In this document: positions 334-20,228 of the stretch, one piece after another
Position numbering within the stretch: position 1 is the first letter of the stretch
How the letters are laid out: each line of letters begins with the position of its first letter
Source of the DNA: Thioalkalivibrio sp.
GTDB lineage: Bacteria > Pseudomonadota > Gammaproteobacteria > Ectothiorhodospirales > Ectothiorhodospiraceae
Reading direction: 5' to 3'
DNA length: 45,855 bases
NCBI GenBank assembly: GCA_011389655.1
Contig: JAABTX010000012.1
Coordinates: forward strand, 1-45,855
The notes under the pieces: generated by a model
The model's database searches: none
The model's input: only the letters and a program-made list of their open reading frames with translations
Told to the model about the DNA's origin: nothing
Program-made: the position numbers and the translations under genes

Positions 334-1221
334 TCAGTCCTGGCCGATCGGCTGGACATCGACGGACACCTGCAGGTCGTGATCCTGACCGCCACCGCGG
401 ACCACACCGCGTACCGGCGCCACATCGCTGTAATCGCGCCCCCAGGCCAGCGTGATGTAGCGCTGGTCCGGCACCGCGTCATTGGTGGGATCGAATTCGA
501 GCCAGCCCCGGGCCGGATCGTACACCGCGAACCAGGCATGCGTGGCGTCGGCACCCACGAGTCTCTCGGCGCCCTCGGGCGGCCGCGTCTCCAGGTATCC
601 CGACACATAGCGCGCCGGGATCCCGAGCGCACGGCTGCAGGCGATCGCGAGGTGGGCAAAGTCCTGGCAGACGCCCATCCGGCTCTCGATCACCCGGGAC
701 AGCGGCGTGCTCACCTCCGTCTGTCCGGGGCGGTAGGCGAACTCCCGGTGGATGAAACGGGACACCTGCCGGCCCACGGCCTCGATGCCCTGATCGGCAT
801 CCTCGGGCAGGCAAAGGCGCCGCAGCAGGTCCGGCTGGAGCGGCAGCAGCGGCGATGCCTGGGTGTACCCGCGCGCATCCAGCGCCGCGGTGTCCACGTC
901 CTGGCGGAGGCGCGCACGGGCCGCCTCCAGGGACAACGGCGGCTCGAACGCGAGTTCGGCCTCGGCCGCGTGGCGCGTGACCTCGAATACCGTGGTGACG
1001 TTCCACTCCCGGTGCACCTGGTCGATGTTCAGCACGCAGGCCGGATTGCCGAAGGCGTCCACGTGCTCCGCAAGGTAGCGTGGCCGCGGCTCCGCCTCCA
1101 GCCGGTAGTGGTGAAGCTGCTGCAGCGGCGCCCGCCGGGGTTTCAGGTGCAGCTCGTTGAGACTGCCGTGCACCGGCGCCGCATAGCGGTAGCGGGTGAT
1201 GTGACGGACGCGGTATTTCAT
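334..1221 (-). CDS. Transglutaminase-like cysteine peptidase/amidase of the ATP-grasp/alpha-E cassette
   Basis: A 295-residue protein with a bacterial transglutaminase N-terminal domain (about 1-85) followed by a transglutaminase-like core (about 150-255). The papain-like triad is visible: Cys185 in GVCQDFAH, His228 in ATHAW and Asp244 in FDPTND. No signal peptide is seen, so it is probably cytoplasmic. The ATG at 1221 overlaps the stop of the upstream gene (ATGA), indicating translational coupling. The frame stays open further upstream inside the neighbour, but the start MKYRVRH matches the family. Relatives sit beside circularly permuted ATP-grasp and alpha-E genes, and their substrate is unknown. 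A role in cleaving or transferring peptide amide bonds made by the ATP-grasp partner is inference. Confidence 0.9.
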   Translation of the reverse strand: MKYRVRHITRYRYAAPVHGSLNELHLKPRRAPLQQLHHYRLEAEPRPRYLAEHVDAFGNPACVLNIDQVHREWNVTTVFEVTRHAAEAELAFEPPLSLEAARARLRQDVDTAALDARGYTQASPLLPLQPDLLRRLCLPEDADQGIEAVGRQVSRFIHREFAYRPGQTEVSTPLSRVIESRMGVCQDFAHLAIACSRALGIPARYVSGYLETRPPEGAERLVGADATHAWFAVYDPARGWLEFDPTNDAVPDQRYITLAWGRDYSDVAPVRGVVRGGGQDHDLQVSVDVQPIGQD

Positions 1222-3809
1222 CCGTCCATCCGCCCCACCAGCGGCAGGGTCGGGGCCGGCGCGAGGTAGTGCGCGAACAGCGCGCGATAGCCCGCATCCA
1301 GTGCCTGCTGCTGTGCCGCCAGCAGCCCATCGAGCTCGTTGCGCATGGTGCCCGGCCCCGCGGTCCAGTCCTCGATCGCCGCGAGGCGCAGGCGTGCCCT
1401 CGCCTCCTCGAAGTGCCGGGCGTGCTCCGGAAGACGCGGCTGCCGTTCCAGGCGCGGCAGCCGCTCCAGGTGCTCCAGCAGCCGGTCCAGCTGGTAGATC
1501 AGGGCGCGCGGATTTCCGGTCTCCAGCAGCAGCAGATCGAGCAGGCCGGCGTCGTCGCGCCGGCTCGCCGGCTGCGCCCGGTAGACCGACAGGCTCTCGG
1601 CGAAGGCCAGCACCATGTTGTTCAGCAGTGCCGCCTCCCGCTGCGCGGACGGCACCACGACGGTGGCACGCAACAGGTTGACCAGCATCAGGCCCCGCTC
1701 CAGGCGTCGGCCGCAGTCCATGAAGCGCCACCCGTCCTCGCGCAGCATGCTCTCCTGGGCGAGACCCGACAGCGCCAGCAGGTGCACGGTCACATCGTCG
1801 AGCACACCGCCCGCCGCCAGCGGATCGCGCAGCGCGGCCAGCGGCTGCGCGGCGTCGCGCAGCCCGCTCAGCACGCGCACGCTGTCCGCGGACAATCGAT
1901 CGAGCAGCGCATTCGCCGTGTTCTGCAGGGCCGCGAGCGCGGCAGGCACGCTGCCGGGCGCGCCGGAATCGGTCAGCAGCCGCAGGAGCTCGGCCTCCGG
2001 GTGCAACAGGCCCTGTTCCGCGCTGTCCGGACCGACGAAGCCCGGATAGCTGCAGCTGAGGTGAGTCAGCGCGCGCAGCATGCGGTCGGTGACCCCGTCG
2101 CCGGCGCGGCCCTCGGTTCGGATCGCCTGCAGCCGGCGCAGGAGCAGGCGGAACCACCGGATCAGCCCCTCCGCCCGTTCCGCGTAGCGTCCGGCCCAGA
2201 GCAGATCGTCGGCGACCCGCCGCGGGAGACTGGCGGGCAGACGGACACCGGGCTCCGGCGCCGCGACGCCGGGCTGCCCATCCGGGGCGACCGCCCCTGC
2301 GGCCGGTGGCAGCACCCAGGTGTCCTTGCTGACGCCTCCCTCCTGGTTCGACACCAGACGGTCTCCCGGCCGCCTTGCCACACGGGTCAGACCGCCCGGC
2401 AGCACCTGGACCCCGCCCGCAAACTGGCTGGCGAAGACCCGGACCGTTCCGTGCCGCGGTTCCACGCCCCCCTGCTCGTCCAGGCAGGGCATGGTGGACA
2501 GCCCCGCGCGCTCCTGCCCGACGAAGCGGGTGGGCTGTGCGCGGATCTGCCGGTACAGCGCCTCCCGTTCCGGGCCCGGCATCTCGCCCGGAAACAGCGG
2601 CCGGCCGCCCTCGATTCGGTCGATGCTGCGCACCACGAGGTCGTGGCCATGGGTCATCACGTGTTCCAGCGAATCGGGGTCACCGCACCACCAGGTGGCC
2701 ACCGAGGGAAGCAGCAGATCCTCGCCGAGCGCGAAACGGGCGATGGCCGGCAGAAACGCGGGCCACGCCGGGCTCTCCAGCAGACCGGTGCCGAGCGCGT
2801 TGGTCACCACGACGTTGCGATGGCGCACCGCCTCGACCAGGCCGGCAACGCCCAGCCGCGAATCCGGGTCCAGGCTCAGCGGATCGCACCAGGCGTCATC
2901 CACGCGGCGGAGGATCACGTCGACGCGCTCCAGCTGCCCGAGCGTGCTCAGCCAGATGCGTCCATCACGGAAGACCAGGTCCTGACCCTGCACCAGCACC
3001 AGCCCGAGCCGGCGCGCCAGCAGCACGTGTTCGAACCAGGCCTCGTTCAGCGGCCCCGGGGAGAGCAGCACGATGCGCGGCTCCGCGACATCCGGGACCA
3101 GGTCGCGCAGTCCCCGGTGCAGGCCGTCGAAGAACGGCCCCAGGTCCCGCACACCGAGCTCGGCGAAGGTGGCCGGCCAGGTCCGCGACAGGATTTCCCG
3201 GTTCTGCAGCGCATAGCCGCTGCCGGAGGGCGCCTGGGCACGGTCGCCGATCACCCGGAACCGGCCGTCCCGATCACGGGCGAGGTCGGCCGCATACAGG
3301 CTGACCACCGGGAGTCCGGCGTGCAGGGAGCCCTTCAGCACCGGCAGAAAGCCGGCGTGCGCCGCGAGGAACTCCGGGGGAACCAGGTTCGCCCGCAGCA
3401 GTTCGCCCGGGCCGAAGACATCCCTCAGGATCCATTCGAAGAGGCGTGCCCGCTGGGACAGGCCGTGCTCGATCGACGCCCATTCACCGGGGTCCAGCAA
3501 CTGGGGCAGCGCATCCAGCGGCCAGGGACGCTGCACGCCGGCGGGATCCGAATAGACGTGGTAGGTAACCCCCAGCTCATCGACCAGGCGCCGGGTCTCC
3601 CGCCCGATGCCGCGTAGCGTGGCACCCTCGTGCGCCTCCAGCGCGCGCAGCAGCGGCAGCCAGTGCGCCCGCGGCCTGCCGTCGGGCAGAAGCAGCTCGT
3701 CCGCATTCCCCGCGACCGGCGCATAGTCGTGCAGCACGTCGCGCCGGGAGCCAGGCTGCCGACGCGGCGCCGTGTCCTGCGCCTGTTTCATGCCGTTCAT
3801 GGGCTGCAT
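1218..3809 (-). CDS. Fusion of circularly permuted ATP-grasp-like domain and alpha-E domain
   Basis: An 863-residue protein. Residues about 30-500 are a type-2 circularly permuted ATP-grasp region. Landmarks are APSGSGYALQNRE (193-205), SPGPLNEAWFEH (250-261) and GGLTRVA near 472, followed by the block from SNQEGG to SKDTW (about 487-498). Residues about 527-860 are an alpha-helical alpha-E domain that opens with RYAERAE, like the stand-alone alpha-E protein upstream. Compared with the full-length ATP-grasp at 4800-6248, the ATP-binding Lys is Arg394 and the glycine loop is altered, so catalysis may be lost. ATG codons at 3800 and 3791 are alternative starts, and the 3800 start has a better-spaced GAGGT. 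It follows the alpha-E gene by 44 nt and overlaps the transglutaminase gene by 4 nt. Confidence 0.88.
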   Translation of the reverse strand: MQPMNGMKQAQDTAPRRQPGSRRDVLHDYAPVAGNADELLLPDGRPRAHWLPLLRALEAHEGATLRGIGRETRRLVDELGVTYHVYSDPAGVQRPWPLDALPQLLDPGEWASIEHGLSQRARLFEWILRDVFGPGELLRANLVPPEFLAAHAGFLPVLKGSLHAGLPVVSLYAADLARDRDGRFRVIGDRAQAPSGSGYALQNREILSRTWPATFAELGVRDLGPFFDGLHRGLRDLVPDVAEPRIVLLSPGPLNEAWFEHVLLARRLGLVLVQGQDLVFRDGRIWLSTLGQLERVDVILRRVDDAWCDPLSLDPDSRLGVAGLVEAVRHRNVVVTNALGTGLLESPAWPAFLPAIARFALGEDLLLPSVATWWCGDPDSLEHVMTHGHDLVVRSIDRIEGGRPLFPGEMPGPEREALYRQIRAQPTRFVGQERAGLSTMPCLDEQGGVEPRHGTVRVFASQFAGGVQVLPGGLTRVARRPGDRLVSNQEGGVSKDTWVLPPAAGAVAPDGQPGVAAPEPGVRLPASLPRRVADDLLWAGRYAERAEGLIRWFRLLLRRLQAIRTEGRAGDGVTDRMLRALTHLSCSYPGFVGPDSAEQGLLHPEAELLRLLTDSGAPGSVPAALAALQNTANALLDRLSADSVRVLSGLRDAAQPLAALRDPLAAGGVLDDVTVHLLALSGLAQESMLREDGWRFMDCGRRLERGLMLVNLLRATVVVPSAQREAALLNNMVLAFAESLSVYRAQPASRRDDAGLLDLLLLETGNPRALIYQLDRLLEHLERLPRLERQPRLPEHARHFEEARARLRLAAIEDWTAGPGTMRNELDGLLAAQQQALDAGYRALFAHYLAPAPTLPLVGRMDG

Positions 3810-3853
3810 GACCTCATGGCAGGGCCTCCGGGCACCAGCCGAACCCCCGGCCC

Positions 3854-4798
3854 TCAGGCGGCCCTGTCCAGCGCGAACCAGGTATCGACGATCGCACCGT
3901 GAAGCCCGGCGATCTCCTGCTGCAGCGCGTCGATGAAGTCGTGCAGGCGATCGTCATCGATCAGCTGATCGACCTCGGCCTTGAGCACGTGCCGCCGCGC
4001 CTGCAGCGCCAGCCGCAGCGGCACCTCATTGCGGGGCAACCGCTCGATCGCGCCGCGCACGTAGTCCAGCGAATGTGCGACCGCGCGCGGAAACGGGATG
4101 TCCTGCAGCAGGAAGCGGACCACGTCGACGCCGTTGATGCGCCGCTTCACGTGCTGGCGGTACATCTGGAAGCCGCTCTGCGAGCGCAGGATGCCGGTCC
4201 ACAACAGTCCCTCGTAGGGACCGGCCGCGTCGCCCTCCGGCCGCTTCAGCAGGCGCAGGGCGCCGGCGTCGATCTGGCGCGAGGTCATGTCCGCGCGTTC
4301 CAGGTTGCGCCCGAGGCGGATGAAGTCGTAGGCCGGATCGTGGCTCATGCAGCCGGCCAGCAGCCCGGTCAGCGTCTGGCAGCGCTGCACCACCTCGGTC
4401 AGGAACTGGTAGCGGCCGCGCTTCCCGAGACCGCTGTCGAGGTTGTCGCGCGCGAACAGGTACAGTTCGTTGACGATCTCCCAGGCCTCCGAGGGCACGA
4501 GGTCGCGGGTGGTGCGTACATTCTCCCGCGCCGACTTCAGCGAGCTGGAGACCGAGCTCGGGTTGTAGTGATCCGCGAGCAGGAACTTCACGCAGTTGCG
4601 TTCGTCCTCGCGCTGGTAGTGCTCCTCGAAGATGTCCTCCTTGCCGGTCACCGCCACCAGGTTCTTCCAGGTGAGCGGCACCGATTTCGGCATGTCCAGG
4701 GCGACCAGGTGGAAGGACATCACCATGCGCGCGGTGTTCTCCGCGCGCTCGACGTAACGGGCCAGCCAATACACGCGTTCCGCGACCCTCGAGAGCAT
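3854..4798 (-). CDS. Alpha-E domain protein
   Basis: A 314-residue, almost entirely helical protein that begins with the family hallmark MLSRVAERVYWLARYVERAE. It carries conserved acidic and Arg-rich helices such as FIRLGRNLERADMTSRQID near 170-190. Alpha-E proteins are nearly always encoded next to circularly permuted ATP-grasp proteins. Their activity is not established, and the conserved charged residues suggest either a catalytic partner or a scaffold. The start lies 1 nt downstream of the ATP-grasp stop, so the two are almost certainly cotranslated. The C-terminal half of the downstream fusion protein is a paralogue of this gene. Confidence 0.9.
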   Translation of the reverse strand: MLSRVAERVYWLARYVERAENTARMVMSFHLVALDMPKSVPLTWKNLVAVTGKEDIFEEHYQREDERNCVKFLLADHYNPSSVSSSLKSARENVRTTRDLVPSEAWEIVNELYLFARDNLDSGLGKRGRYQFLTEVVQRCQTLTGLLAGCMSHDPAYDFIRLGRNLERADMTSRQIDAGALRLLKRPEGDAAGPYEGLLWTGILRSQSGFQMYRQHVKRRINGVDVVRFLLQDIPFPRAVAHSLDYVRGAIERLPRNEVPLRLALQARRHVLKAEVDQLIDDDRLHDFIDALQQEIAGLHGAIVDTWFALDRAA

Positions 4799-4799
4799 C

Positions 4800-6248
4800 T
4801 CAGTCCTCCTCGTCCACGATCCAGGTGTCCTTGCTGCCGCCGCCCTGCGAGGAGTTCACCACCAGGGAGCCCTTGCGCATCGCCACCCGGGTCAGGCCCC
4901 CGGCAGTCACGTCCGTGCGCACACCCTGCAGCACGAAGGGCCGCAGGTCGAGGTGGCGGGGCTCCAGGCTCTCGTCACAGAGCGTGGGGGCCACCGACAG
5001 GTTCAGTGTCGGCTGCGCGATGTAGTTGCGCGGATCCTTCTTGATCAGCTGGGCGAACTCGGTCCGCTGCTTCTTCGACGCCTGCGGACCCACCAGCATC
5101 CCGTAGCCGCCGGACTCGTTCGCGGGCTTCACCACCAGTTCGTCCAGGTGGTCGAGCACGTAGGCCTGGTCCTTCTCGTTCACGCAGAGATAGGTCGGCA
5201 CGTTGGGGATCACCGGCTCCTGGTCCAGGTAGTACCGGATCATCGCCGGCACGTAGGCATAGATCACCTTGTCGTCGGCCACGCCCGAGCCCGGCGCGTT
5301 TGCGAGCCCCACCTTACCGTTGCGCCAGGCCCGCATCAGCCCCGGCACCCCGAGCAGGGAGTCCGGATTGAATTCCTCCGGATCCATGAAGTCGTCGTCG
5401 ATACGACGGTAGATCACGTCCACCCGCTCCAGCCCCTCGATGGTGCGCATGTACACGCAGTCGTCGTCGCCAACCACGAGATCCGCGCCCTCCACCAGCT
5501 CCGCGCCCATGCGCTGGGCGAGAAAGGAGTGTTCGAAGTAGGCGGAGTTGAAGATCCCGGGCGTCAGCACCGCGATCTCCGGGTAGTCCTGCGGCCGCGG
5601 CGAGATCGCGGCCAGCATGTCGAACAGCTGTGTGGGGTACTCGTCCACCGGGAGGATGCTGGAGTTCTCGAAGACCTCGGGGAAGACCCGCTTGGTCACC
5701 TCGCGATTCTCCAGCATGTAGGACACCCCCGACGGGACGCGGAGATTGTCCTCGAGCACGTACAGCGTGCCGTCCCGGTCGCGCACCAGGTCGGACCCGC
5801 AGATGTGCGCCCATACGCCGTGCGGCGGCCTGATGCCGCGGCACTGTTCCCGGAAGTTCCGCGACTTGTTCAGCACGTACTTGGGCAGGACCTTGTCCCG
5901 GAAGATCCTCTGGTCGTTGTAGACGTCGTCGATGAACAGGTTCAGCGCGGTCAGGCGCTGCACGAGGCCGGCCTGCACCCCCTCCCACTCGCGCTTCGGG
6001 ATCACCCGCGGGACGATGTCGAAGGGCCAGGCGCGATCGATGTTCTCGCCTTCGCTGTAGACCGTGAAGCTGATGCCCATCTCGAGGATCGCGTGATCAG
6101 CGGCCTGCTTGCGCACCTGCAGCTCCCGGTCATCCAGGGAACTGAGGTACTCCATCAGCTTGCGTGCCACCGGGCGGGGCTTGCCCGGAGCGGCGATCAG
6201 CTCGTCGTAGAAGGGCGATGGGTCGTAGGACTTCCAGTCGATGGACAT
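4800..6248 (-). CDS. Circularly permuted type-2 ATP-grasp protein
   Basis: A 482-residue protein matching the full length of the family. Residues predicted for nucleotide binding are intact: Lys374 in ELVVKPANESGGYGML, the glycine loop 378-383, LRPFV near 435, and GGLTRVA followed by NSSQGGGSKDTW (450-476). Upstream landmarks are LEDNLRVPSG (165-174) and a TPGIFNSAYFEHSF block around 230-242. ATP-grasp enzymes make amide bonds through acyl phosphates, so this is the likely ATP-dependent ligase of the cassette. The acceptor and donor are unknown. It is the first gene of the unit, and an AGGAG lies about 11 nt before the ATG. Confidence 0.92.
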   Translation of the reverse strand: MSIDWKSYDPSPFYDELIAAPGKPRPVARKLMEYLSSLDDRELQVRKQAADHAILEMGISFTVYSEGENIDRAWPFDIVPRVIPKREWEGVQAGLVQRLTALNLFIDDVYNDQRIFRDKVLPKYVLNKSRNFREQCRGIRPPHGVWAHICGSDLVRDRDGTLYVLEDNLRVPSGVSYMLENREVTKRVFPEVFENSSILPVDEYPTQLFDMLAAISPRPQDYPEIAVLTPGIFNSAYFEHSFLAQRMGAELVEGADLVVGDDDCVYMRTIEGLERVDVIYRRIDDDFMDPEEFNPDSLLGVPGLMRAWRNGKVGLANAPGSGVADDKVIYAYVPAMIRYYLDQEPVIPNVPTYLCVNEKDQAYVLDHLDELVVKPANESGGYGMLVGPQASKKQRTEFAQLIKKDPRNYIAQPTLNLSVAPTLCDESLEPRHLDLRPFVLQGVRTDVTAGGLTRVAMRKGSLVVNSSQGGGSKDTWIVDEED

Positions 6249-16422: not shown

Positions 16423-16450
16423 GGGGACAGATTCAAATAAATCTGTCCCC
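16423..16450. repeat. GGGGACAGAT palindrome, copy A
   Basis: Arms GGGGACAGATT (16423-16433) and AATCTGTCCCC (16440-16450) are perfect 11-bp complements around CAAATA. Copies B and C near 18652 and 18735 share the GGGGACAGAT arm with a different core. Such palindromes are typical of small non-coding mobile repeats. Confidence 0.75.
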
Positions 16451-16513: not shown

Positions 16514-16590
16514 TGGTAGCGGGGGCAGGATTTGAACCTGCGACCTTCGGGTTATGAGCCCGACGAGCTGCCAGACTGCTCCACCCCGCA
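16514..16590 (-). tRNA. Initiator tRNA-fMet (CAT), CCA encoded
   Basis: A 77-nt cloverleaf with anticodon CAT. The initiator signature is present: three GC pairs in the anticodon stem (CGGG..CCCG around CTCATAA) and an unpaired 1:72 position. The D arm (GAGCAGTCTGGCAGCTC) and T arm (GCAGG TTCAAAT CCTGC) are normal, and CCA is encoded. Position 1 is U and position 72 is U, not the usual C1-A72. It lies upstream of rimP as metY does in E. coli. Confidence 0.95.
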
Positions 16591-16684: not shown

Positions 16685-18583
16685 TCAACCACCGACGGCC
16701 TGTATCCGCCCGCGTTCCACCCGCCGGATCCGGTCTTGGCCGGCCTTCTTGGCGGCCCGCAGTGCGCGATCGGCGGCACGGATCAGGGCCTCCGGGTCGT
16801 GCATGTCGCCCTCCCTGCTCGCGAGCCCGATGCCGATCGTAACCGGTACCGCCTGGCCGCCGGCCGTAATCCCCAGTGCATGGACCGCATCGTGCAGCCG
16901 CTCGGCCACCGCGTGGAGCGAGCCGGTCTGCGTGTTCGGACAGATCACCAGGAACTCGGCGCCGCCCATCCGCGAGATGTGGTCGCATCGGCGTCCCGAT
17001 GCCCGAAGAACCGAGGCCACCGCGATCACCACCTCATCCCCTGTCCGGTGACCGTGCAGCCCGTTGATTGCCTGCAGGCCGTCCACGTCGATCATCATCA
17101 TGGCCAGCGGCTGCCCGTACCGGTCTGCGGCGCTCCAGGCCCGGGCCAGGAACTCCATGCCCGCACACCGGTTCGGCAGGTTCGTGAGCGGGTCCGTGAG
17201 CGCGGCCTCCTCCAGCCGGCGGTTGCTGACGGCCAGGTCGGAGGCCAGTCTCGCCAGACGCGCCCGATCGCGTTCGCGCTCCTGGAGCAGGCTCACGTGG
17301 CGGGAGGCGGTGCGCAGTCGCAGCCGCATCAGCGGAACGCTCACCGGTCCGGGCAGATAGTCGTCCGCATCCAGCCCGAGTTGTTCGGGCGACCCGGCCT
17401 CGCCCTCGGCCCCGGTCAGCGCGATCAGGTAGACCGAGCGCCCCCAGTCCGTCGCGCGCAGCGAATGGCAGAACTCGAGATCGTCCCCGGCCGGACGCGC
17501 GCAGTCGGTGATCACGACCTGCGGGACCACCTCCAGCGCGAGCGCCAGTGCCTCCTCCCTGTTCACCGCCGGATAGACCGTGTGGCCGAGCCTGGAGACG
17601 ATGCCGCTGAGCAGCAGGCGGCTCGAGGGATCCTCCTCGATCAGCAGCACGCGCAACGGAACCGGGTCATGCCCGTGATCGCGGAGGACCGGTTCCGATC
17701 CGGACATCCGGGCAAAGGGCTGGGCGAAGCGCACCGGCACCCTGAGCAGCTGACTCCATTCATGCCAGTCGCCGACGATGCGCTCCATCAGCGTGTCCAG
17801 GGATTCGGCGTCGAGGCCGATCTGTGCCGCCTCGGTCATCAGGGCCGACCGGAGTTCCGCCCGCGCGGCCTCCGATGCGAACCCGAGATCCGCAACCCGA
17901 CTCGCGAGCGCCAGCGTCTGCAGGATCCGCTCGGGCCGCGAACCGGGGGCAAACCCCGAGGCCGCGGGGCACCGATGGTAGTAGACCGGCTCCGCCAGCG
18001 TCTCCGGGATGCCGAACTCGCGCAGCAGTTCGGCGGTACACTCGTCGTGGTCCGTCTGCAGGACCTGCCGTTCCAGACGCAGCAGCGGCGCATCCCCCTG
18101 CTCCGCCCTGCGCAGCACCTCGCCGTATTCCGACGGACAGGCGGTCGCCAGCGCAAGACTGCCGATGTCCGCCAGCAGCCCGCAGGCGAAGAGCTCCTCG
18201 ACCCCCCGCAGCCGCGCGCGCGCGCCGAACTCGCGGGCGGCCAGCGCCATCAGCAGCGATCGGGACCAGAAGCGCTCGTAGTCGAAGGCCTTGCAGGGTC
18301 CGTCGCGGTACTGATCCACCAGCGAGAACCCGAGCGTGACCCGGGTCACGGTACACAGCCCGAGCCGCACCACCGCGTCGCGCACCGCGGCCACCGGCCG
18401 GCCCGCGTGCAGCGCGGAGTTCGCGAGCCGGATCAGCCGCCCCGTGAGCGCGGGATCCGTCTGCACGACCTCCGCGATCTTCTCCATCGTCACGTCATCG
18501 CGGCGGCTGAGCCGCATCACCGACAGCGCAACCCCCTTCGGACTCGGAAGCCGGCCGCTCGCTCGCAATTCCTCGATGGTCAT
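16685..18583 (-). CDS. HDOD-receiver-GGDEF protein with degenerate GGAEF active site
   Basis: A 632-residue cytoplasmic signalling protein. HDOD domain about 1-205 (LLADIGSLALATACPSEY, and DHDECTAELLREFGIPETLAE). Receiver domain about 310-425 with phosphoacceptor Asp360 in ITDCARP. A coiled linker about 428-460. GGDEF domain about 455-620. The GGDEF signature reads GGAEF (540-544): the third residue, a metal-binding Asp/Glu in active diguanylate cyclases, is Ala. Asp499, Asn507 and Asp516, expected for metal and GTP binding, remain. The inhibitory site RxxD is intact (RRCD, 531-534) five residues before the motif. The receiver lacks its conserved Lys. The ATG at 18583 follows GGGGGGG; a start at 18667 would lie inside a palindromic repeat. 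It is unlinked in function to nuo or tRNA-fMet as far as I can see. Confidence 0.9.
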   Translation of the reverse strand: MTIEELRASGRLPSPKGVALSVMRLSRRDDVTMEKIAEVVQTDPALTGRLIRLANSALHAGRPVAAVRDAVVRLGLCTVTRVTLGFSLVDQYRDGPCKAFDYERFWSRSLLMALAAREFGARARLRGVEELFACGLLADIGSLALATACPSEYGEVLRRAEQGDAPLLRLERQVLQTDHDECTAELLREFGIPETLAEPVYYHRCPAASGFAPGSRPERILQTLALASRVADLGFASEAARAELRSALMTEAAQIGLDAESLDTLMERIVGDWHEWSQLLRVPVRFAQPFARMSGSEPVLRDHGHDPVPLRVLLIEEDPSSRLLLSGIVSRLGHTVYPAVNREEALALALEVVPQVVITDCARPAGDDLEFCHSLRATDWGRSVYLIALTGAEGEAGSPEQLGLDADDYLPGPVSVPLMRLRLRTASRHVSLLQERERDRARLARLASDLAVSNRRLEEAALTDPLTNLPNRCAGMEFLARAWSAADRYGQPLAMMMIDVDGLQAINGLHGHRTGDEVVIAVASVLRASGRRCDHISRMGGAEFLVICPNTQTGSLHAVAERLHDAVHALGITAGGQAVPVTIGIGLASREGDMHDPEALIRAADRALRAAKKAGQDRIRRVERGRIQAVGG

Positions 18584-18651: not shown

Positions 18652-18677
18652 GGGGACAGATTTGCAAATCTGTCCCC
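18652..18677. repeat. GGGGACAGAT palindrome, copy B
   Basis: A perfect 26-nt palindrome. Arms GGGGACAGATTT (18652-18663) and AAATCTGTCCCC (18666-18677) flank GC. It lies 69 nt upstream of the HDOD-GGDEF start and 57 nt from copy C. The pair brackets a C-rich/G-rich repeat. Confidence 0.8.
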
Positions 18678-18734: not shown

Positions 18735-18760
18735 GGGGACAGATCTGTACATCTGTCCCC
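18735..18760. repeat. GGGGACAGAT palindrome, copy C
   Basis: Arms GGGGACAGAT (18735-18744) and ATCTGTCCCC (18751-18760) flank CTGTAC. It begins 23 nt after the nuoN stop in the direction of transcription and would form a stable hairpin at the 3' end of the nuo transcript. No T-run follows. Confidence 0.78.
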
Positions 18761-18782: not shown

Positions 18783-20228
18783 TCAGCCCGCCACCGCGTA
18801 GTGGGTGAGGGTCAGCAGCAGGCCGGGGAAGATCCCCAGCAGCAGCACCGCGAGTCCGTTCACGCTGATCGCGGTCGCGAACACGCCGCCGCGGTCCGCC
18901 GCGGCCCGCTCCTCCACCGGATCGTCGAAGAACATCAGCTTCACCACCCGGAGGTAGTAGAAGGCGCCGATGATCGAGAAGACCACGGCGTAGATGCCCA
19001 GCCACACGTAGCCGGCACCGATCGCCGCCTGGATCACCGACAGCTTGGCGAAGAAACCGACGGTGGGCGGCACCCCGGCCATGGAGAACAGCAGCAGCAG
19101 CATGATGAACGCGAACCAGGGGTTCCGGCGCGCGAGCCCCCTGAAGTCGTCGAGCTGATCGGCCTCGTGGCCGCGACCCGACAGCAGGATGATCATTCCG
19201 AAGCCGCCGGCCGCCGTCAGCGCGTACACGATGATGTAGAACATCGCCGATGCATAGCCGGTTTCGGTGCCCGCCAGGACACCCATGAACAGGAAGCCGA
19301 CGTGGGCGATGGTCGAGTACGCGAACATGCGCTTGAGACTGGTCTGGGCGATCGCGATCACGTTGCCGACCGCGAGCGACAGGACGGCGAGCACCACGAG
19401 CATGTCGCCCCAGTCGCCGTGCAGCGGGCCCAGGCCCTCGACCAGCAGGCGCATCAGCAGCGCGAAACCGGCGATCTTCGGTGCGGTGGCGATGAACAGG
19501 GTGACCGCGGTGGGCGCCCCGTCGTAGACGTCCGGCACCCACATGTGGAACGGCACCGCCCCCAGCTTGAAGGCGACGGCCACGACCACGAAGACGAGGC
19601 CGAAGACCAGCGGCACGTTCATGCCCTCCTCCGTCGCGCGCAGCGCGGCCGCGACGGTGGCGATGTCCAGGCTGCCGGTCATGCCGTAGATCATCGACAG
19701 CCCGTAGAGCAGCAGCCCGGAGGCCAGCGCTCCGAGCACGAAGTACTTCATCGCCGCCTCCGACGCGCGCATCGAGTCGCGCCAGAAGGCCACCAGGGCA
19801 TAGGAAGACAGCGCCAGCAGCTCGAGCCCGAGGTACAGCGTGAGGAAGTTGTGCGCGGAGATCATCACCATCATGCCGAGCACGGCGAACAGGCCCAGTA
19901 CGTAGAACTCCCCCCGGTAGATGTCGCGTTCGATCAGGTAGGGACGCGCGTACAGGAACACGAAGAAGGTCACCCCATACATCGCGAGCTTCAGCACGTC
20001 GCTCATCGGGTCGGCGACGAAGGTTCCGCTGAAGGTCGTCTGCGTCTCGGGCCCGGCGAGCCAGAGGGTCAGGACCGCGGCGCCCGCCAGGGTCGCCTGC
20101 ACCAGCCCGTAGGTGATATCGCGGCGGGAATCGGGCAGGAAGGCGTCCAGCGCCAGGATCAGGCAGGCCATGGCCAGCACGAACATCTCGGGCACGGCGG
20201 GCAGGAAGGCAGGAATCTCGAAATTCAT
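18783..20228 (-). CDS. nuoN: NADH-quinone oxidoreductase subunit N
   Basis: A 481-residue, about 14-helix antiporter-like subunit of the complex I membrane arm. Conserved features include the glutamate in [19 protein letters not shown], the buried lysine of [20 protein letters not shown] and the [14 protein letters not shown] block. It transmits proton pumping. It is the last gene of the nuo operon and starts 13 nt after nuoM. Repeats, not another gene, follow it. Confidence 0.97.

Follow-up and report, generated by a model that had tools for sequence, protein, structure and literature searches.

In PleD, E370 is a metal ligand, and K332 and R446 are triphosphate contacts. These residue roles are partly restated in work on SgmT (PMC3509222). 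Several GGDEF proteins with a degenerate A-site and an intact I-site bind c-di-GMP, namely CdgA with a Kd of about 2 uM (PMC3271064) as well as SgmT and PopA (PMC3509222). SgmT is also without phosphate-binding residues, and its R794 is part of a secondary c-di-GMP site (PMC3509222). The motif GGAEF has been made deliberately to kill cyclases: in Salmonella STM4551 it led to no c-di-GMP rise or function (PMC3229569), and in Vibrio vulnificus it was used as the catalytic-mutant control for RcbB (PMC12282931). Degenerate cyclases that remain active, such as VCA0965 (AGDEF) and ECA3270 (SGDEF), keep the third residue of the motif (PMC3974145). Lastly, MmoQ of Methylococcus capsulatus is a regulator that is encoded with MmoS and has been proposed to take part in the copper switch of methane monooxygenase (PMC7994243).

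Here, we compare these systems to a gene of Thioalkalivibrio sp. (assembly GCA_011389655.1, 3.46 Mb in 367 contigs). The window, i.e. the whole stretch of DNA that was analysed, comprises 45,855 nucleotides of contig JAABTX010000012.1 and includes the following features:

16685-18583, minus strand: HDOD-REC-GGDEF protein of 632 aa (open frame, translation, Pfam; AlphaFold2 mean pLDDT 85)
17972-18550, minus strand: HDOD domain, residues 12-204, the presumed output (Pfam, E 4.6e-48)
17333-17650, minus strand: receiver domain (Response_reg), residues 312-417 (Pfam, E 4.3e-8)
16730-17203, minus strand: GGDEF domain, residues 461-618, catalytically degenerate with the predicted fold intact (Pfam, E 7.6e-36)
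16952-16966, minus strand: GGAEF motif, residues 540-544, in which Ala542 replaces the metal-binding Glu/Asp (PleD E370)
16982-16993, minus strand: I-site RRCD (R531, D534), which together with R562 matches PleD R359/D362/R390
16514-16590, minus strand: tRNA-Met, conserved downstream neighbour and locus marker in relatives
18783-20228, minus strand: nuoN, conserved upstream neighbour

The gene starts with an ATG at 18583 and has no internal stop. Pfam, profile matches and a tree with 42 relatives assign the protein to the MmoQ-like HDOD-REC-GGDEF family with the domain order present in full length; an NCBIfam search of the protein yielded no equivalog above cut-off. The best solved relative of its HDOD domain is MmoQ (3ljx/3p3q in the PDB, E 7.9e-55), and the HDOD part of an AlphaFold2 model built on 25 family members fits both structures. 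The GGDEF domain is mostly modelled with a pLDDT above 90 and superposes over 161 columns on 3ign, a GGDEF domain with bound c-di-GMP, at 1.3 A (TM 0.93 by target). As the pTM is low (0.49), the packing of the domains is not predicted by the model.

Judged by its HDOD part, a protein of 611 aa (L067) is closely orthologous to MmoQ; its gene adjoins a chaperonin gene, as expected for mmoG. MmoQ itself has an apparently intact GGEEF cyclase domain and an I-site (L067; L117:4005-5891), which would tie the methane-monooxygenase copper switch to c-di-GMP. In a methanotroph-like group (L115, L120), the family member adjoins a DUF4154 gene of the YfiR/HmsC-like type; L115 additionally has a TonB-dependent receptor gene and a REC-GGDEF-EAL gene beside it.

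Full-length or contig-cut orthologues of the window gene are present in 6 of the 47 family genomes, window genome counted. We found nuoN upstream in all five orthologue loci with enough contig; where the downstream sequence is readable, it contains tRNA-Met, followed by rimP where the contig reaches. Because these flanks are common to them, the six orthologues represent one locus. Three of them carry GGAEF and form clade A (the window protein, G036 with 83% identity and G038 with 94% identity), and the three members of clade B carry GGEEF (G029, G031 and G037, 55-57% identity to the window protein). Together with 37 more distant full-length relatives, obtained by profile searches of the wider class and of the family of the best outside match, they form a comparison set of 43 sequences. 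The GGAEF sequences are one clade with 100/100 support in the tree of this set. Two complete genomes, G013 (L123) and G014 (L122), have nuoN directly followed by tRNA-Met, without an HDOD-REC-GGDEF gene, and their NuoN proteins group with clade A with moderate support in the nuoN tree (0.88). Most simply, these two genomes have lost the gene. It is dispensable in this branch, where the ancestral cyclase would thus have been disabled in some members and deleted in others.

The neighbours of the window gene are housekeeping genes (the nuo operon and rimP-nusA-infB). In Pfam scans, the flanking genes included no histidine kinase and no obvious partner, and the flanks in relatives revealed no constant partner gene or kinase. 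REP-like palindromes (GGGGACAGAT...ATCTGTCCCC) at 16423-16450, 18652-18677 and 18735-18760 flank the gene on both sides; such palindromes were not seen in the inspected flanks of an active sister gene (L016). Elsewhere in the window (1218-6248, minus strand), adjoining genes contain circularly permuted ATP-grasp and Alpha-E domains; one gene encodes the two as a fusion, and the two genes after it encode them separately.

The preliminary description of this DNA had read residues 540-544 as GGAEF with alanine as the third residue, and the translation agrees exactly. Position 542 is Ala in clade A alone; the other 40 of the 43 sequences have Glu (39) or Asp (1). With PleD numbering assigned by alignment, all three clade A members share E542A (E370), K504Q (K332), R616Q (R446) and F503L (F331). 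In the other 40 family members, K504 and F503 are found in 40/40 and R616 in 39/40. The last three changes had been passed over in the preliminary description, as had the receiver domain between HDOD and GGDEF. Clade A keeps the equivalents of PleD D327, N335, D344, E371 and K442, and the window protein retains the guanine contacts N507 and D516, the first metal ligand D499 and, among the triphosphate contacts (PleD K332, K442, R446), K612. E542A, K504Q and R616Q thus leave the domain without one metal ligand and two triphosphate contacts, with the guanine contacts kept. Catalytic positions are changed more often than other conserved GGDEF positions (4/8 vs 5/40, Fisher p 0.03), a contrast that is suggestive only, with the positions sorted post hoc. 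The earlier claim that catalysis has been lost is strongly supported: three substrate or metal positions and one neighbour are gone, and GGAEF is the laboratory kill mutant (PMC3229569, PMC12282931). Judging from these residues, the window protein is in all likelihood a dead diguanylate cyclase.

The receiver domain is degenerate as well. The window protein keeps the phospho-acceptor D360 and T390, carries D317E and has lost the switch lysine (K412G). K412G is common to clade A and the lysine is kept in clade B; the set of acceptor Asp, Thr and switch Lys of a phosphorylation-dependent response regulator is incomplete in clade A. Since the switch lysine is lost, conventional phospho-activation of the clade A protein is unlikely, by analogy with CheY-type receivers. 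The reverse combination, degenerate receiver residues with an intact GG(E/D)EF, occurs in two other family members (L064, L068).

The RRCD motif at 531-534 had been described as lying at the spacing of a functional I-site. This holds, as R531xxD534-x5-G540 corresponds to PleD R359xxD362-x5-G368 with a constant offset of 172, and the site extends to the secondary Arg562: the distance from R531 to R562 is 31, as in PleD (R359-R390) and SgmT (R763-R794). A gapped mafft pairwise alignment equated R562 with PleD R392; the ungapped offset and the SgmT spacing give R390. All three residues of the triad are invariant in 43/43 family members. Nearly all of these proteins look like active cyclases by sequence and all of them carry RxxD; we thus conclude that RxxD in clade A was inherited as a feedback site. 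Of 48 conserved GGDEF columns, 9 differ in every clade A member; for any three given residues, the odds of being kept by chance are hence about even, and the retention of the I-site in the three clade A sequences is not statistically significant. Receptor function cannot be read from the presence of RxxD alone, as the motif is found in 44-57% of GGDEF domains overall (PMC3974145), and each of the eight GGDEF domains with a readable motif in the window genome carries it.

Within the Ala clade, dN/dS is 0.16-0.24 for the whole gene and 0.17-0.27 for the GGDEF domain, compared to 0.20-0.23 for the GGDEF domain of the active sister clade. These values show that the gene is still under purifying selection in clade A. 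In the tree, the Ala clade sits on a long stem branch, with a length of 0.78 vs 0.20 for its sister. The GGDEF and post-HDOD regions are accelerated in the Ala clade whereas HDOD is not, with significance fading with more distant outgroups. For instance, one relative-rate comparison gave 34 vs 6 unique changes in GGDEF and 16 vs 17 in HDOD. Such a pattern would be predicted for an output half that retained its function and a regulatory half that was re-tuned.

A ligand should be available in the cell. Besides the window protein, the window genome encodes seven GGDEF proteins whose motifs are intact and which carry RxxD. It also has five near-complete EAL domains, two partial EAL matches and four PilZ proteins; c-di-GMP is thus very probably present. 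Seven other HDOD proteins are encoded as well, of which two are HDOD-GGDEF proteins with intact motifs.

Our preferred reading, to which we assign a probability of about 0.57 from sequence comparison, is that the window protein is a diguanylate cyclase that recently turned into a c-di-GMP receptor via its I-site, with HDOD as output. An MmoQ-like HDOD-REC-GGDEF cyclase would have lost catalysis and the conventional phospho-switch in one Thioalkalivibrio-group lineage and kept the I-site. The c-di-GMP would be supplied by the cell's other, intact GGDEF proteins, and an intercalated dimer of it may bind R531/D534 and the R562 of a neighbouring GGDEF domain. The bound ligand would cross-link or reorient the GGDEF domains, this rearrangement would shift the oligomeric state or the position of the N-terminal HDOD domain, and HDOD may then contact a partner. 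The sequence shows the loss of catalysis, the conserved I-site, the persisting purifying selection and, by prediction, an intact fold; c-di-GMP binding, conformational coupling and the role of HDOD as output are inferred. The preliminary description had already proposed a c-di-GMP receptor; its two premises, lost catalysis and an intact I-site, stand, and the receptor step, including c-di-GMP binding, is plausible only. Conversions of this sort are not very unusual, and this one would be seen at a recent stage. More tentatively, the protein could represent a recent enzyme-to-receptor conversion, in which catalysis and the phospho-switch were lost and the feedback site became the ligand site, and it would then be the first c-di-GMP receptor whose output is an HDOD domain.

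Other explanations have to be weighed against this receptor reading. The protein could be a decaying or purely structural pseudo-enzyme, in which GGDEF only helps HDOD to dimerise or fold, no nucleotide is meaningfully involved and the I-site is a relic. The long stem branch of the Ala clade (0.78 vs 0.20), the faster evolution of its GGDEF domain, the lost switch lysine and the empty nuoN-tRNA-Met site in the genomes beside it in the nuoN tree (0.88) all fit such decay, which stays alive mainly because the gene would have been disabled or deleted in the branch of the Ala clade and G013/G014. However, the frame is open with a dN/dS of 0.16-0.24 in three genomes, GGDEF is constrained no less than in the active sister clade and all I-site residues are kept, and we therefore consider decay a serious but less likely rival. 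In Caulobacter, the GEDEF domain of CC3396 is a GTP sensor, and the degenerate active site might likewise bind and sense another nucleotide (GTP, ppGpp). This would agree with the retention of N507, D516, D499 and K612 and with the existence of PleD structures with ppGpp (9g85, 9g86), but three triphosphate or metal contacts are gone (K504Q, E542A, R616Q), which makes it distinctly improbable.

We attach much less weight still to residual cyclase activity, whether of the protein by itself or of a heterodimer that it forms with an intact GGDEF protein. VCA0965 and ECA3270 are degenerate but active (PMC3974145); however, they vary the first Gly only and keep the metal-binding Asp/Glu, whereas the window protein has lost the metal residue itself and three further contacts, and enzymes engineered to GGAEF neither raised c-di-GMP nor functioned (PMC3229569, PMC12282931). 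That Ala542 is an error, or a change confined to one strain whose enzyme is active, as one might suspect from the Glu or Asp in 40/43 relatives, has a negligible probability: Ala recurs in two further independently assembled genomes, down to 83% identity and in one clade (100/100), and three other catalytic changes accompany it. The preliminary description had left room for a strain-specific change if orthologues had GGDEF or GGEEF here. These motifs are indeed found elsewhere in the family, but Ala542 is fixed in the three-genome clade A and is thus lineage-specific.

The receptor reading would matter in two ways. The change from enzyme to receptor in degenerate cyclases is mostly discussed on the basis of distant relatives; in this genus group, a dead and an apparently live form of the orthologue occupy one locus with 55-57% identity, which provides a matched control. 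The order in which catalysis and the receiver switch were lost and the I-site was kept, and the effect on binding, are directly testable in this orthologue pair. Furthermore, the protein would connect c-di-GMP to HDOD domains, about whose outputs little is known. In the accessible parts of the papers that name HDOD, GGDEF and c-di-GMP, subscription papers aside, we found neither an HDOD-GGDEF c-di-GMP receptor nor a degenerate-GGDEF receptor with an HDOD output.

When comparing the window protein to the known systems, the MmoQ orthologue shares its HDOD-REC-GGDEF order and the RxxD motif (RTSD), but it has GGEEF, the Lys and Arg and a complete receiver switch, about 37% identity overall and other neighbours. 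The clade B proteins share the locus, the architecture and an I-site (RTDD or RADD); they differ in having kept GGEEF, F, K and R as well as the receiver lysine, and are predicted to be active cyclases. PleD and WspR share the REC-GGDEF module and the I-site triad and are the closest fold matches, but they are active cyclases without HDOD. PopA, SgmT and CdgA resemble the window protein in their degenerate A-site with RxxD five residues before the motif, whereas the partner domains differ: receiver domains in PopA, GAF-kinase-REC in SgmT and HDOD in the window protein. In its proposed working, the window protein would thus be a member of the known kind of degenerate-GGDEF receptors, in which an HDOD output would be new.
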